Source: a virus. From it: a stretch of 22,158 nucleotides of DNA. Position numbers and translations under genes: made by a program. Location: positions 1 to 22,158 of the IMG/VR virus record IMGVR_UViG_3300045452_000043. The stretch is one strand, 5' to 3'. The notes under the pieces were generated by a model, which was not told where the DNA came from, made no database searches, and worked only from the letters and a program-made list of their open reading frames with translations. Positions 15,040 through 21,960 of the stretch are shown here, piece after piece (within the stretch, counting starts at the first letter, position 1; every line of letters begins with the position of its first letter).

Positions 15040-16539
15040 TTACGCGCCGAGGGGCACGAAGTCGTCTGGATTGTAGGTAGCCCTCCGTTCCTTTTTGGAA
15101 ACGAAGGTAGAGCCGTAAGATTCGATTGCCCGAACACAGGCGGGAAAGTCGTCGTGTTCTTCGACGGGCTTGTTGCCGTCGCCCCAGAGGTATCTTCCCA
15201 TCTGGTAGCGGTGTCCCGTGAGCGTTCGGAAAAACTTAATGGTGGTGTTCATGGGATTGTCGCCGGGACGAAGTTGCTGGCACACCGCCATAATAGAGGC
15301 GTTGACGGAGCCTTTGCGGTGCTCGAATGTGTCAATTTTGCACTTAATGCCGTTGTTTCGCAGGACGCTCACAAAGTTCGCAGAGTTTTTGGCGCTGTTG
15401 ACGAACGCCTGATACGAGGGGTCGATGAGGATGGTGGTGGTGCCGTGGAAGTCCTGCACGGAGGGGACTTTCTCAATGATGGCGCGCGCAATGATGTCGG
15501 CGGGCTGCGGCGTCTTGATTTCGTGCCAGAAAAACTTTTCGTTCTTCGGGTTCACGGCGCAGAACGAGATGTAGGTGTCCTTGGAAGGATGCGGGTCGAT
15601 GGCGATGTAGTGCGTCCAGTGTTTGGGAATCTCAAACGGCTCAATCCAGTAGTGCTTGGCGTCTTCGCCTTCGAGGTTGAATACGGGGCCGACGAGATGG
15701 GAGAAGCGGCCATAGACGCGGGAAGCCCACTCCTGTTGCGGAACGGTAAGTTTGTAGTCCTCGACGTAGGCGGCGTCGGCGATGCCGTATCCCACGTTGT
15801 CATACATGGACATCTCCCAACAGTCAATGATGGAGCTCTTGTGAAACTTGGAGGACTTGACGTAGAACTGGTCGTAGATGAAGGGCGTGTGGTTGCTGAT
15901 GAGGGATGGCGTGAGCGTCAGCCATGCGTAGCCGTTGTTGGCGATGCAACCGCGCCATGACGACACCCATGCGCTTTCCGGGCACGGCTCGTCAATGGCG
16001 AGGTAATGTCCCGTCCATCCCTCGCCCGACGAGAGTTTTTCAAATTGGGTGTGGGTGATGATGTGGATTTGCGAGCCATTGGGCGTGTTAATTTCCTCAA
16101 GGGCGGCTCCGGGTTGGTGGCGATTGATTTTGTAGCCTCGGCTTTTGAGCATGGCCGGGAACCACTTCAAAAGTTTCGGTTCAATGACGGGGCGGACGGT
16201 TTTGGCGAAGTCCGTGGCGATGATGCGGATGCTGACGGGGGGGCGAAAAGGCATGTAGTAGGAGGGGTCGTCTTTCGGAAGCCATGGGCGGTAGCCTAAA
16301 ACGGCGGCGGCGACTTCGGCCATTCCGGCTTCGGTTTTGCCCGATTGGTTCGCGCCGCTCAAAAGACGGATGCGGGCGCGGCTGGCGTGAAAATCCGCCT
16401 GCGTCGCATGGGGGCGGTAAAACTCCAACGGTCGGGAGAGGCGATACTCTTCGAGCGCGCAGAGCGTGTCGAAGAGCTTAATCGCTACTGTATCCGCGTG
16501 GCTTCCGCTGGGGGCGGCATCATGTAGGGTTTCAGGCAT
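15040..16539 (-). CDS. terL: Terminase large subunit (ATPase-nuclease, 499 aa)
   Basis: This is the DNA-packaging motor: an N-terminal ATPase pumps DNA through the portal and a C-terminal RNase H-fold nuclease cuts it. Walker A is GANQSGKT at residues 62-69. Walker B is HYLAIDEP at 178-185, with D183 and catalytic E184. The coupling motif LTLTPS lies at 207-212. Candidate nuclease metal ligands are D315 in IAIDPHPSKD, D373 in LIDPSYQAF and D463/D464 in EEHDDFPAC. The length is normal for the family. The start at 16539 lies inside the 3' end of TerS (55-nt overlap), so the two are coupled. The family is certain; the packaging strategy (cos, pac or terminal repeats) is not visible here. Confidence 0.95.
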   Translation of the reverse strand: MPETLHDAAPSGSHADTVAIKLFDTLCALEEYRLSRPLEFYRPHATQADFHASRARIRLLSGANQSGKTEAGMAEVAAAVLGYRPWLPKDDPSYYMPFRPPVSIRIIATDFAKTVRPVIEPKLLKWFPAMLKSRGYKINRHQPGAALEEINTPNGSQIHIITHTQFEKLSSGEGWTGHYLAIDEPCPESAWVSSWRGCIANNGYAWLTLTPSLISNHTPFIYDQFYVKSSKFHKSSIIDCWEMSMYDNVGYGIADAAYVEDYKLTVPQQEWASRVYGRFSHLVGPVFNLEGEDAKHYWIEPFEIPKHWTHYIAIDPHPSKDTYISFCAVNPKNEKFFWHEIKTPQPADIIARAIIEKVPSVQDFHGTTTILIDPSYQAFVNSAKNSANFVSVLRNNGIKCKIDTFEHRKGSVNASIMAVCQQLRPGDNPMNTTIKFFRTLTGHRYQMGRYLWGDGNKPVEEHDDFPACVRAIESYGSTFVSKKERRATYNPDDFVPLGA

Positions 16540-17132
16540 TCGATGACCCGGTTTCGGGCGATGGCGTTTTCCTTGATGAGGCGTAGAAAGAGGTCAAGGG
16601 CTTCGTCCACGCGGGCATTGAAGGTTTCGGGCGTCACGAAATCGCCACGGACGGAGAGCGGGTCGGCGGTCATCTTCCGCGCCTCGGAAATGACGGAGAC
16701 GATTTGGTTCATGATGGCGAGAAGTTGTGTCGGCGCTTTCGGCGCCTTCGTGCGGTGGCCCTCTTTCGAGCGTGCCTTCGCCATACGGAGGTTGTGAAGG
16801 AATGCCTCTCGGAAATGTTGCTCAAGGGACTTGGCGCGGTCAAGCGCCTCCTGAAGTTCCTGAAGTTGCCGCTGGCGGTTGGCGATGGGGACTTGGACGA
16901 TGGCATTTTCGTAGGCGGCCTCGGCGTCAAGGTAGGCTTTGCGAAGGCGGAAATCGGGGTCTTGCCCGCTGTCTTTGTCCTCGATGATTTTTCGGACGGA
17001 CTCGACGATGTGCTTCTTAAGGCGAAGCGTCTGGCAGATTTCGCGCGTCGGAAAGCGCCGCCCGAAAAACGCGGCTATCTCCTCCGCCTTCTCCCAACTT
17101 ATGCCGAGCGCCCGCTCAAACGTGTCCGACAT
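16485..17132 (-). CDS. terS: Terminase small subunit-like protein (215 aa)
   Basis: This is predicted to recognise phage DNA and regulate the large subunit. It is the first gene of the late operon and overlaps the large subunit by 55 nt. Residues about 10-50 contain a helix-turn-helix-like segment (ISWEKAEEIAAFFG, then RREICQTLRLKK), followed by a long charged coiled coil (about 60-125) and a helical C-terminus. No Walker motifs are present. The ATG at 17132 is the first possible start, as an in-frame TAG lies just upstream; it lies inside a predicted operator palindrome and has only a weak AGGT ribosome site. The assignment depends mainly on synteny, length and layout. Confidence 0.78.
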   Translation of the reverse strand: MSDTFERALGISWEKAEEIAAFFGRRFPTREICQTLRLKKHIVESVRKIIEDKDSGQDPDFRLRKAYLDAEAAYENAIVQVPIANRQRQLQELQEALDRAKSLEQHFREAFLHNLRMAKARSKEGHRTKAPKAPTQLLAIMNQIVSVISEARKMTADPLSVRGDFVTPETFNARVDEALDLFLRLIKENAIARNRVIECLKPYMMPPPAEATRIQ

Positions 17133-17199
17133 TTTTTGTCGCTACCTGTCATTTTTTGTCGCAAGCGACAATTTTTAGTCCTCGGAGACAAAAAATGTC
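17128..17199. promoter_or_regulatory. Four-site operator array in the late-operon leader
   Basis: Four palindromes of the form GACA-N5/6-TGTC (with one mismatch in sites 2 and 3) occur at 17128-17140, 17148-17160, 17167-17180 and 17187-17199. Their start positions are 20, 19 and 20 bp apart, about two helical turns, so proteins bound to them would line up on one face. Sites 1 and 2 share the 12-mer CATTTTTTGTCG plus a following C. Sites 3 and 4 also form an imperfect long inverted repeat in RNA. The array lies between the predicted late transcription start (about 17210) and the TerS ATG, which is inside site 1. It probably controls late transcription. Confidence 0.75.
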
Positions 17200-17216
17200 G
17201 CCGTCGTTAGGATTTA

Positions 17217-17245
17217 ACTTTAGGTTATTCTAAAGGCATTGTCAA
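17217..17245 (-). promoter_or_regulatory. Late-operon promoter (sigma70 type)
   Basis: On the minus strand TTGACA (17245-17240) and TAAAGT (17222-17217) are separated by exactly 17 bp. The expected start is near 17210, giving a leader of about 78 nt that contains the four operator palindromes. It faces TerS and all genes to its left. Confidence 0.75.
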
Positions 17246-17260
17246 GTTAAATTTTCCCCC

Positions 17261-17289
17261 TTGACAAACGGGTATTTAGGGTGTAATAT
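17261..17289 (+). promoter_or_regulatory. Early promoter of the regulator operon (sigma70 type)
   Basis: TTGACA (17261-17266), 17 bp, TAATAT (17284-17289). The expected start (about 17295-17298) is only 1-4 nt before the ATG at 17299, which predicts a leaderless transcript. The -35 boxes of this and the late promoter face each other 15 bp apart and are inverted copies (CTTGACA). Confidence 0.78.
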
Positions 17290-17298
17290 GTTAGTGTT

Positions 17299-17505
17299 AT
17301 GAGAAGTGAAACTAAACGCGTGACGATTTTGTTGTCCCCGCAGGTGCACGTGCGCCTCGCGGAAAAAGCGAAAGAGGAAGGCATGCCGCTCGCGGTGTGG
17401 GTGCGGACTCGTGTGCTCAAGTTCGACCGCCGCCTGACGACGAGGACGGAAGAGGTCGAGCACCGCCGCGACGGTCAGAGGAAGCGCTATGCATCCCCTT
17501 CATGA
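17299..17505 (+). CDS. Ribbon-helix-helix transcriptional regulator (68 aa)
   Basis: Residues 6-41 fit the MetJ/Arc/CopG-type ribbon-helix-helix fold: a DNA-contacting strand KRVTILLS (6-13), helix 1 PQVHVRLAEKAKEEG (14-28), a turn, and helix 2 PLAVWVRTRVLKF (30-42). The tail is basic. Such dimers insert the N-terminal strand pair into the major groove and bind cooperatively to tandem palindromes. The ATG has no ribosome site because the predicted transcript starts almost at the codon. The gene lies directly across the divergent promoter region from a four-palindrome array, so it is the natural candidate repressor of the late operon and perhaps of itself. Target assignment is inference. Confidence 0.82.
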   Translation: MRSETKRVTILLSPQVHVRLAEKAKEEGMPLAVWVRTRVLKFDRRLTTRTEEVEHRRDGQRKRYASPS

Positions 17506-17523
17506 CGGCGGGTTCGCTTTGCC

Positions 17524-17718
17524 GTGGATTCCCGCGAGGGCTTTCTGCCGCCGCATGAATCGGTAAGCGAGGAGTTTGTTAGCGCCGTGGCAATGTGGCT
17601 ATTCGACCAGATGCGACGGCATAACCGCGAGTGCGGGCTGGACGAAGGTGTGGCGCGGGAAGTCGCAGGGATTGCGGTTTACGGAAAAGATTACACGGAA
17701 AAGGAGCAAAGACCATGA
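17524..17718 (+). CDS. Small protein of unknown function (64 aa)
   Basis: The frame starts at GTG 17524; it follows the regulator's stop in the same frame with no stop between. No strong ribosome site is present, so reinitiation after the regulator is likely. The stop overlaps the nuclease ATG in an ATGA junction, which supports it as a real gene. It is a predicted helical, acidic/basic mixed protein with a VAMWLFDQMRRH helix. The start is uncertain; a 25-residue ORF (17489-17566) with a better ribosome site overlaps its beginning. No family is recognised. Confidence 0.6.
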   Translation: MDSREGFLPPHESVSEEFVSAVAMWLFDQMRRHNRECGLDEGVAREVAGIAVYGKDYTEKEQRP

Positions 17719-18938: not shown

Positions 18939-18981
18939 TAGACCTCACTACCCCCCACTCAACCCCGCCAATACCACAAAT

Positions 18982-18997
18982 TGTTCCACGTGGAACG
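18982..18997. other. parS-like centromere site
   Basis: TGTTCCACGTGGAACG contains a perfect 14-bp palindrome (18983-18996) and matches 15 of 16 bases of the chromosomal ParB site TGTTCCACGTGGAACA. It lies 44 nt downstream of the last gene of the first plus-strand block, inside a non-coding region. No ParA or ParB gene is present in this window. The match is seen in the sequence; function is inferred. Confidence 0.72.
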
Positions 18998-19113
18998 TTC
19001 GGTTTTTGCGCTCCTTTCTCTCAAAAACTACCACTTTTCGGAGCGGGTTGAGAGTTGAACCCCTAAACAATCCTTCTCTTACTCTGGGTCTCCCCCTCCC
19101 CCTTTCCTTCCCC

Positions 19114-19143
19114 TGTTGCGTTTCTGCAACACTTGAGCAAGTG
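19114..19143. repeat. Two adjacent inverted repeats
   Basis: TGTTGC-N6-GCAACA (19114-19131) is followed, with overlap, by CACTTG-AG-CAAGTG (19130-19143). Each could be a protein-binding palindrome or a hairpin. Neither is followed by a U-tract on either strand. Confidence 0.55.
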
Positions 19144-19160
19144 AGTTTGAGGTGTATAAT
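19133..19160 (+). promoter_or_regulatory. Possible promoter in the gene-free region
   Basis: TTGAGC (19133-19138) and a perfect TATAAT (19155-19160) are separated by 16 bp. Transcription from about 19167 would cross the GC-rich block and could make either a non-coding RNA or a long leader for the gene at 19595. The -35 box overlaps one palindrome. Confidence 0.4.
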
Positions 19161-19214
19161 TTTTGGACAGTAGAGGGTGAGTTTGTATAGTTTTCGCACA
19201 GCGATAATTTTTGG
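19141..19214 (+). repeat. Direct repeats in AT-rich segment
   Basis: GTGAGTTTG occurs at 19141-19149 and 19177-19185. ATAATTTTTGG occurs at 19156-19166 and 19204-19214. The order (GTGAGTTTG then ATAATTTTTGG) is repeated twice with a longer gap in the second copy. Confidence 0.5.
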
Positions 19215-19215
19215 T

Positions 19216-19447
19216 GAGAGGTCTTAAGAGTTCTCGGCGTGGTGCCTGTGCGCTGTGGGGCGTGACAGGGTCGCGGGCGTCTGTGGCGCGTTCCCAGTGT
19301 CGAGGCCGCTCTTGGGGCGGTCGTGGACGGCGGTTTGGTCTCGCGCTGGCTCCGGCGGGCGGCATAGGTGCCTTCTTTCCTGCGTGGTCAATCCCCGCGC
19401 GGCCTTCCGCGAGTCGCTCGGCCACGGGGTAGGGTAGCACGGGGATT
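19216..19447 (+). other. GC-rich non-coding block, possible structured RNA
   Basis: This block lies downstream of the TATAAT promoter. It can form CCTGTGCGC-N6-GCGT-G-ACAGG (19245-19269, one bulge and one G-U pair), and its end is closed by AATCCCCG (19390-19397) with CGGGGATT (19440-19447), an 8-bp perfect inverted repeat enclosing 42 nt. No coding frame looks natural in it. A structured RNA is possible but not shown. Confidence 0.3.
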
Positions 19448-19489
19448 GCGTGTCGTCAAGGGGAAAATTTTATTTTCGCATTTTTGCCC

Positions 19490-19518
19490 TTGACAAACGA
19501 CAAACGATGACTTATAGT
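19490..19518 (+). promoter_or_regulatory. Promoter of the second plus-strand operon
   Basis: TTGACA (19490-19495), 17 bp, TATAGT (19513-19518), with an A/T-rich stretch upstream. GACAAACG is directly repeated across the -35 region and spacer. The 13-mer CCCTTGACAAACG is shared exactly with the promoter at 17261. Confidence 0.75.
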
Positions 19519-19545
19519 GTAATCTGATAGTTGGCACGGCGGATG

Positions 19546-19571
19546 GCTTCCCTCGCCGAAGAGTGGGAAGC
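19546..19571 (+). promoter_or_regulatory. Leader hairpin before the 93-aa gene
   Basis: GCTTCCC (19546-19552) pairs with GGGAAGC (19565-19571) around a 12-nt loop, in the transcript between the promoter and the ribosome site of the next gene. It may protect the 5' end or regulate translation. Confidence 0.4.
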
Positions 19572-19594
19572 GAAAAACGAGAAAGGAAAAGACA

Positions 19595-20445: not shown

Positions 20446-21960
20446 ATGATAAAAACTCCTTATTCAGGCTCCGCCTGTGTAGTCGAGGCGCAAGCCCGCG
20501 AGCGCGGGGCGGCGTGGCAGGTCATCGGTCTACCCGATGCCGTCGTGCGTGAAGCGAGTGCCCGCATCATCGCCGCCCTCTCCGGCGTGTGGCCGAAGGG
20601 ACGCGGCGTCCTCGTGTCCATCTCTCCCGCCGCTCTCCGCAAGCGCGGAGAGTCCTTTGACCTGCCAATGGCGCTGGCCGCCCTGTGCGCCATGGGGCGG
20701 TTGCAGGCTCCGCCGCATGACTGGGCGGCAGGCGGCGTGTCCATCTCTGGGCGGCTCGTTCCCGTGCCCAATCCCGTCGAGACCGCCCAGACCGCGAAGG
20801 CACACGGGGCTACAAGCCTCCTCCTGCCGCAGGAAAGCGCCCTGCAAGCGGCTTTCGTGGACGGGATAGCCGTTTATGGGGCGGCGACCCTCGCGGAGGC
20901 GCTAGAGGGCGGCAGGCGCGTTTCCTCGCCGGATGTCGTGGACTCGCCCGCCCAGACCCCTGCCGGGGATTTTGCGGACGTGGTGGGGCAAGCCGCGGTG
21001 AAGTGGGCGCTCGCCCTTGCCGTCGGCGGCGGACACCATGTCCTGATGACGGGCGATGCAGGCGCGGGCAAGACCATGATGGCCTCTCGCCTTCCTACCA
21101 TCATGCCCGCCCTCACGCGGGACGAAGTGGCGGAGCTGACCGCCCTTTACCAATCCGCTGGCGACTGGCGGCCGGCGGCCGGCGGCCTGATTGTCGCCCG
21201 CCCCTTCCGTGCCCCGCACCACACGTGCGCGCCAGAGGCGCTGTTAGGCGGAGGCGGCGGCGTGCCGCGTCCGGGTGAAGTCTCGCTTGCTCACCTCGGC
21301 GTCCTTTTTCTCGATGAGTTCGGGGAGTTCCGCCGCGATTGTCTGGAAGGCTTGCGGCAGGCGCTGGAGTCGCGGCGCGTCTTCATTTCCCGCTCCGAAG
21401 CGAAAGCGTCCTTCCCGTGCGATTTCATGTTGGTAGCCGCCCAGAATCCCTGCCCCTGCGGGCGCGTGCCCTGCATCTGCAAAGCCGCCGCTGTCGAGGC
21501 TTACGAGGCGCGGATTTCAGGCCCCGTCGCTGACCGCGTGGACGTGCAAGCCTACGTCCAGCGCCCGGATGCCGCCTCCCTTTTCGAGCGTGAAGCGGAC
21601 GGTCTGTCGAGCGCCGCCCTTCGGGAGGTGGTCGAGCGCATCCGCAAGGCGTCGGCGAGGCGGAAAAAACTTAATGCCGCCCTCGCGCGGGACGAGTTGA
21701 TGGGCATGCTTCGGCTTTCCGAGCGCGAACGCGCGGTAGTGGCGGCGAACGCCGAACGGCTTCGGTTGTCAGAGCGCGGGATAGACAAGATTCTCCGCGT
21801 CGCGCGGAGCGTGGCCGATGCCGGGGGAAGCGCGGAGGTCGAGTATCGGCATGTCGTGCAAGCCTTCCCGCTTCGGGCGCAAGGCAAGCGCATGGTCGAG
21901 GAATCGCAAGCCGTGGCCGATGCCGTGGACGCGGCGCTCGGCGCGGATGCGCCATTCTGA
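20446..21960 (+). CDS. ComM/YifB-like AAA+ ATPase of the Mg-chelatase family (504 aa)
   Basis: Bacterial ComM (YifB) is a hexameric helicase that drives branch migration during homologous recombination, known from natural transformation. ATG 20446 follows GGAAGGAG. The length (504) matches the bacterial family (about 500). The N-terminal Lon-like/ChlI domain includes QVIGLPDAVVREA (25-37) and SPAALRKRG-x-FDLP (60-74). The AAA+ core has Walker A GDAGAGKT (203-210), RPFRAPHHT (252-260), GGG-x-PRPGEVSLAH (269-283), Walker B VLFLDE (286-291), sensor-1 N334 and ARISGP (355-360). The C-terminal domain has LSERGIDKILRVARSVAD (441-458), the family's arginine-containing signature. The Cys loop is shortened to CPCG-x3-C-x-C. 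Codon use matches its neighbours. A phage-encoded copy is unusual; it may aid recombination-dependent replication. Confidence 0.92.
   Translation: MIKTPYSGSACVVEAQARERGAAWQVIGLPDAVVREASARIIAALSGVWPKGRGVLVSISPAALRKRGESFDLPMALAALCAMGRLQAPPHDWAAGGVSISGRLVPVPNPVETAQTAKAHGATSLLLPQESALQAAFVDGIAVYGAATLAEALEGGRRVSSPDVVDSPAQTPAGDFADVVGQAAVKWALALAVGGGHHVLMTGDAGAGKTMMASRLPTIMPALTRDEVAELTALYQSAGDWRPAAGGLIVARPFRAPHHTCAPEALLGGGGGVPRPGEVSLAHLGVLFLDEFGEFRRDCLEGLRQALESRRVFISRSEAKASFPCDFMLVAAQNPCPCGRVPCICKAAAVEAYEARISGPVADRVDVQAYVQRPDAASLFEREADGLSSAALREVVERIRKASARRKKLNAALARDELMGMLRLSERERAVVAANAERLRLSERGIDKILRVARSVADAGGSAEVEYRHVVQAFPLRAQGKRMVEESQAVADAVDAALGADAPF

Follow-up and report, generated by a model that had tools for sequence, protein, structure and literature searches.

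A non-random array of four GACA/TGTC dyads before the terS candidate of a tailed phage, beside a ribbon-helix-helix-like gene

The terminase locus and the anatomy of the array

This study concerns a 72-bp element of four tandem GACA-N5/6-TGTC dyads in the leader of a terS candidate (small terminase subunit) of the virus record IMGVR_UViG_3300045452_000043, a linear record of 22,158 bp that was analysed at its full length and is called the window below. The record comes from a tailed phage, with matches to SU10 families for both its portal and its major capsid protein, and the terminase (phrog_2) and tail genes are encoded on its minus strand. The array sits between a leftward promoter and the terS ATG, within a divergent intergenic region from which terS and terL run leftward and the open reading frame (ORF) of a 68-aa protein resembling ribbon-helix-helix (RHH) regulators runs rightward. 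On the 3' side of this ORF lie small genes and a nuclease-like gene. The main features of the locus are the following.

15040..16539, minus strand: terL (large terminase subunit), 499 aa, phrog_2, 2.5e-15
16485..17132, minus strand: terS candidate, 215 aa, with a 38% identical homologue at the equivalent position before terL in the relative L013 (described below)
17217..17245, minus strand: sigma-70-like terS promoter, TTGACA (17245-17240), 17-bp spacer, TAAAGT (17222-17217), 10/12
17299..17505, plus strand: 68-aa RHH-like protein (CopG/Arc-like), candidate binder, with sub-threshold profile matches and fold matches

Because an in-frame TAG lies just upstream at 17144-17142, the ATG at 17132 is the earliest possible start of terS, and the N-terminus of the product aligns with that of the L013 homologue. 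Since the -10 hexamer lies at 17222-17217, the terS transcript should start near 17210, which would place the array at about +11 to +83, covering the terS start codon. The four dyads are arranged as follows.

17128..17140, no strand: dyad 1, GACA-TTTTT-TGTC, exact, GACATTTTTTGTC, holding the terS start codon (complement of 17130-17132)
17148..17160, no strand: dyad 2, GTCA-TTTTT-TGTC, one mismatch (left arm), GTCATTTTTTGTC
17167..17180, no strand: dyad 3, GACA-ATTTTT-AGTC (N6), one mismatch (right arm), GACAATTTTTAGTC
17187..17199, no strand: dyad 4, GACA-AAAAA-TGTC, exact, GACAAAAAATGTC

The initial annotation had described four palindromes at this place, the first of them containing the terS ATG. 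The coordinates, the steps of 20, 19 and 20 bp between dyad starts (17128, 17148, 17167 and 17187) and the position of the start codon all proved right, whereas only dyads 1 and 4 are exact palindromes and dyads 2 and 3 are imperfect, so that two of the 32 core bases are mismatched. Dyads 1 and 2 have 13 identical bases in common (CATTTTTTGTCGC), dyad 4 with its flanks is the exact inverse of dyad 1 over 14 nt, and the arms frequently extend to GCGACA/TGTCGC, giving a dyad type GCGACA-W5-TGTCGC. The centres of the dyads are A/T tracts (T6, T6, T5 and A6) about 19-20 bp apart.

When read as half-sites, the element forms a ladder of eight tetramers, namely GACA at 17128, TGTC at 17137, 17147 and 17157, GACA at 17167, AGTC at 17177, GACA at 17187 and TGTC at 17196, in which a GACA/TGTC tetramer returns every 9-10 bp over 68 bp, unbroken across the linkers. 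The mean half-site step of 9.7 bp corresponds to a dyad period of 19.7 bp; the spacing of about two helical turns claimed earlier is therefore regular, as stated, but slightly less than two 10.5-bp turns (21 bp). Short half-sites, their pairing into dyads and a fixed spacing near one helical turn, as in tandem operators of the RHH type, were thus all found here. One further dyad lies in a second register between dyads 2 and 3, and the same bases make up a weak terminator-like hairpin followed by T5 on the plus strand.

17156..17171, no strand: second-register dyad, TTGTCGC-AA-GCGACAA

The array compared with shuffled and natural DNA

Three kinds of control were set against the array, namely the whole window after dinucleotide shuffling (400 times), the 190-bp local region after shuffling (20,000 times) and 64 natural phage loci. 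The best four-site set carried 8 mismatches in the window shuffles and 9 in both the local shuffles and the 64 loci, as against 2 of 32 in the array. A motif-blind test scored the longest series in which any one tetramer or its complement returns every 9-10 bp, one gap being permitted; the array reached 7, the window and local shuffles no more than 6 (once), and the 64 loci no more than 5. These data confirm that the array is real and non-random.

The number of exact matches is by itself unremarkable, as the window holds two and 12 of 100 shuffles also reach two. Both exact copies in the 22 kb fall within the array; an equal frequency of the motif across coding DNA, which the initial annotation had named as a result that would refute its reading, is therefore not what the window shows. 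In a scan of the window with a dyad model, all four sites were among the top six matches, a rank that is not independent because the model was built from those sites.

The adjoining protein, the promoters and the relatives

The 68-aa gene adjoins the array at a distance of 99 bp, on the strand opposite to terS. Its Pfam matches all belong to RHH families and all remain below the curated cut-offs: NikA-like (3e-4; 21.3 bits vs 27), HicB (0.0035; 17.7 vs 21) and RHH_5 (0.037; 14.2 vs 26). Because of these sub-threshold matches the protein is filed as RHH-like by its fold and not placed in a named RHH family. PHROGs gave an Arc-like repressor (phrog_582) at E 0.085, and a PDB sequence search returned spurious matches only. 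The single-sequence structure model, with a mean predicted local distance difference test (pLDDT) score of 66 (78-91 over residues 11-40), has extended residues 1-13 followed by helices at 14-27 and from 31 onward, which is the strand-helix-helix order of RHH proteins at moderate confidence, the strand being visible in the monomer model only as an extended stretch. Foldseek placed CopG first, followed by Arc, MatP and NikA among others (E 0.04-0.2, probability up to 0.99), and VIA-align returned mainly RHH proteins with Z values of 4.4-6.8, which are middling by that tool's own note. By our own reading, the strand KRVTILL lines up with KRLTITL of CopG. Based on the model and these matches, the protein is likely a ribbon-helix-helix protein, as the initial annotation had proposed.

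Concerning the promoters, the near-consensus promoter previously described before terS was found. Two further features of the intergenic region bear on its regulation.

17218..17235, no strand: perfect dyad CTTTAG-N6-CTAAAG, between the -35 and -10 of the terS promoter
17261..17289, plus strand: promoter of the RHH gene, TTGACA, 17-bp spacer, TAATAT, 10/12

The CTTTAG-N6-CTAAAG dyad may, to judge from its sequence and position, be a second operator of its own. The mRNA of the RHH gene is leaderless or nearly so, and its promoter begins 62 bp beyond the end of the array, counted to the -35; the array is therefore placed to block the leftward transcript and not the promoter of the RHH gene. A promoter-like box, ATTTTNCCCTTGACAAACG...GTGTAATNTGNTAGT, is present in two copies, at 17251-17295 (the rightward promoter) and at 19480-19531 of the window, the latter copy carrying a 7-bp ACAAACG duplication.

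A single true close relative, IMGVR_UViG_3300009537_001542 (L013, identical with L066), was obtained by a search with a three-sequence TerL alignment, and repeat searches with TerL and portal alignments returned the same contig only. No close relative was found with TerS, the RHH protein, TerL or the major capsid protein as single queries against viral contigs, nor with TerL against bacterial genomes as a single sequence or as an alignment; TerS against phages and the RHH protein against plasmids gave no relative, and the RHH protein against phages gave chance-level matches only. A DNA similarity search of 17000-17600 against phages gave no match, and a literature search for the literal site sequence gave one unrelated match. 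The relative shares 60% identity with the window in TerL, 62% in the portal, 38% in TerS and 39% in the nuclease homologue.

In the relative, terS is apparently leaderless and is preceded by TTTTCCCCTTGACA (L066, about 1526-1562), a box similar to that at the rightward promoters of the window. The shared box is probably a promoter type proper to this phage group, and because of it terS of the group seems to be transcribed, like other genes, from promoters of one sigma-70-like class. At 1550-1571 a perfect dyad with 7-bp arms, CATGTGT-TATTTATG-ACACATG, overlies both the terS start codon and the presumed -10, preceded by two dyads of TGTRTA-N5 style at 1489 and 1508; on comparison, the relative thus also has a dyad across its terS start, but one of a different sequence. 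Small genes running in the same direction as terS lie upstream of it, as does the nuclease homologue, and the contig stops short of the position at which the RHH gene would be expected, so that the relative neither confirms nor refutes the pairing of array and RHH gene.

Further observations were made in these comparisons. The nuclease-gene block is inverted or moved relative to the terminase genes, being divergent in the window (17299 onward) and co-directional in L066 (1-1569). A 17-bp dyad-like motif, TGTRTA-N5-NNNACA, has its top two scores in the window at 19153-19169 and 19184-19200, in the non-coding 18939-19590, and three of its top four scores in L066 all lie in the terS leader (1489-1505, 1508-1524 and 1552-1569); from its sequence it is a candidate operator common to both phages. 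The stretch around the window sites (18939-19594) separates two blocks of rightward genes; its roughly 650 bp contain repeats and a promoter and no convincing gene, and an Rfam scan of the window, this stretch included, gave no match. In the distant phage Podoviridae sp. ctKR88 (L012, 2330-2451), the terS leader carries repeated TGTC-containing units (TGTCAATAG twice and CAATTGTCCCCACAT twice, at steps of 30-46 bp). Six viral-contig matches to the array pattern TTTTTTGTCGC-N-TTTTTTGTC were rejected, as none had the dyad ladder and they look like lysine-rich coding repeats. Elsewhere in the window, a ComM/Mg-chelatase-like gene (20447-21960, ORF listed from 20164, Pfam 1e-70) lies in a stretch whose G+C content is higher (0.67-0.70 vs 0.59), and may be a captured host gene or a prophage edge.

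Candidate functions of the array

The array beats all controls, sits between promoter and ATG and has an RHH-like gene 99 bp away; these data support the reading that we favour and to which we give about an even chance, namely that it is a multi-site operator bound cooperatively by the adjoining 68-aa RHH protein, which would block terS-terL transcription. Each dimer of the protein would occupy one GACA/TGTC half-site, with its beta-ribbon in the major groove. Dimers would pair across each A/T centre and continue cooperatively along the DNA, and the coated DNA would form a roadblock to RNA polymerase just past the terS promoter, keeping expression of the packaging genes low or absent as long as the repressor is plentiful.

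Several known systems resemble this arrangement. For an RHH repressor at a terminase operon or late promoter, a literature search of incomplete coverage found nothing relevant. CopG, the copy-number repressor of pMV158/pLS1 and the best fold match of the 68-aa protein, binds TGCA-N5-TGCA, tetrameric half-sites with a 9-bp step equal to that of GACA-N5-TGTC; the array differs in its half-site (GACA/TGTC vs TGCA), in its four tandem dyads and in its place in the terS leader rather than at the repressor's own promoter. Like Arc and Mnt of P22, the 68-aa protein is a small phage RHH-type protein encoded between divergent transcripts, although beyond the fold it has no sequence relation to them (only the phrog_582 match noted above), and Arc uses one tetramer operator whereas eight half-sites are present here. 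In E. coli, RHH dimers of RelB read four short repeats (core [A/T]TGT[A/C]A) that are paired into dyads along a single face of the DNA, cooperatively and with exact spacing needed (PMC2812701), but relO consists of two abutting 12-bp dyads vs four dyads at 19-20 bp steps here, and, unlike in the RelB system, no toxin gene was recognised here. ParR proteins bind 10-, 11- or 20-bp repeats (PMC9426499), and the ParR/parC centromeres (pSK41 with 20-bp, R1 with 11-bp repeats) likewise have an RHH gene next to repeats that recur every 10 or 20 bp; unlike them, the array has four dyads only and lies at a packaging gene, and no ParM-like or ParA partner was recognised among the window ORFs scanned, the record being a fragment. 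By analogy, half-sites 9-10 bp apart in tandem dyads fit the grammar of published RHH operators.

Some points weigh against binding by the 68-aa protein. Autorepression is usual for RHH repressors, and on the promoter of the RHH gene no array copy was found; as this promoter lies outside the array, the gene need not repress itself through it. The relative searches turned up no second genome with both array and RHH gene, and the terS leader of the one relative, whose contig stops short of the RHH place, has no GACA array. The RHH assignment itself comes from sub-threshold profile matches together with the single-sequence model (pLDDT 66), and binding is predicted from sequence and model evidence. 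Of the proposal in the initial annotation, the non-random dyad array, the adjoining RHH-like protein and the RHH-operator anatomy were supported, whereas the 'late' designation of the promoter was not, as the terS promoter of the relative belongs to the same class as the other promoters of the window and no temporal classes are indicated; for this reason, and because of the relative's different leader, the proposed early-to-late switch is speculation.

Among the alternatives, recognition by TerS itself, at a pac or cosB-like site that starts DNA packaging and perhaps lets TerS limit its own synthesis, is unlikely in our estimate and is nonetheless a serious rival, because the pac site of SPP1 overlaps promoters, the ribosome-binding site and the start of terS; its pacL is bent and the terminase is reported to repress itself (PMC6316719, PMC4856287). 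The pac of SPP1 (pacL/pacC/pacR) and the cosB of lambda, with its three repeated TerS sites, are thus repeated or bent DNA at a comparable place, and the array likewise reaches the terS start codon and has four A/T tracts about 19-20 bp apart, which, should TerS bind, would bend the DNA for wrapping round a TerS ring, a detail as unlikely as the reading it belongs to. However, a 9-10 bp ladder of four tandem dyads with 4-bp arms is typical of dimeric regulators, and the described TerS sites are not built as regular tandem dyads, pacL and pacR having no sequence identity to each other; nor does the leader of L013, despite its 38% identical TerS, hold such an array. TerS is here only a candidate binder, and its structure model is too poor (pLDDT 49) to reveal a DNA-binding domain. 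Another regulator, supplied by the host or by phage DNA beyond the 22-kb fragment, is a rather doubtful binder: a linear fragment would leave further regulators unseen and a GACA-W5-TGTC dyad could suit many dimeric regulators, but the window ORFs that were scanned revealed no further DNA-binding regulator, and the RHH gene lies directly beside the array. We regard as improbable a combination of the two purposes, in which the RHH protein coats a packaging-recognition site in the terS leader, silencing the terminase and hiding the packaging start.

An action of the repeats in the terS mRNA leader, where hairpins would mask the start codon and control translation, seems quite improbable. Dyads 4 and 1 can pair as a 14-bp stem over the ATG (-32.7 kcal/mol, z -2.15), but with more terS sequence the stem probability is only 4%, because the dyads pair in many competing ways; each dyad is, moreover, palindromic by itself, which a long stem does not need, and the terS mRNA of the relative looks leaderless, so that such control would not be common to both phages. 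Finally, chance, slipped duplication of AT-rich DNA or curved DNA alone is a very improbable origin. The 13 identical bases of dyads 1 and 2 make one tandem duplication likely in the history of the array; dyads 3 and 4, however, differ in sequence and orientation and yet keep the arms and the spacing, and no shuffle or other locus came near the score of the array.

Taken as a genuine feature, the array has the look of a common type of gene switch, here in a phage that is otherwise unknown. If TerS binds, it would mark where packaging starts in an uncharacterised group of phages with SU10-type portal and capsid proteins, and if the element serves both purposes, gene timing would be tied to DNA packaging. 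If the adjoining RHH protein binds, as we favour, the array and its neighbour would form a compact phage switch acting on the terminase genes.
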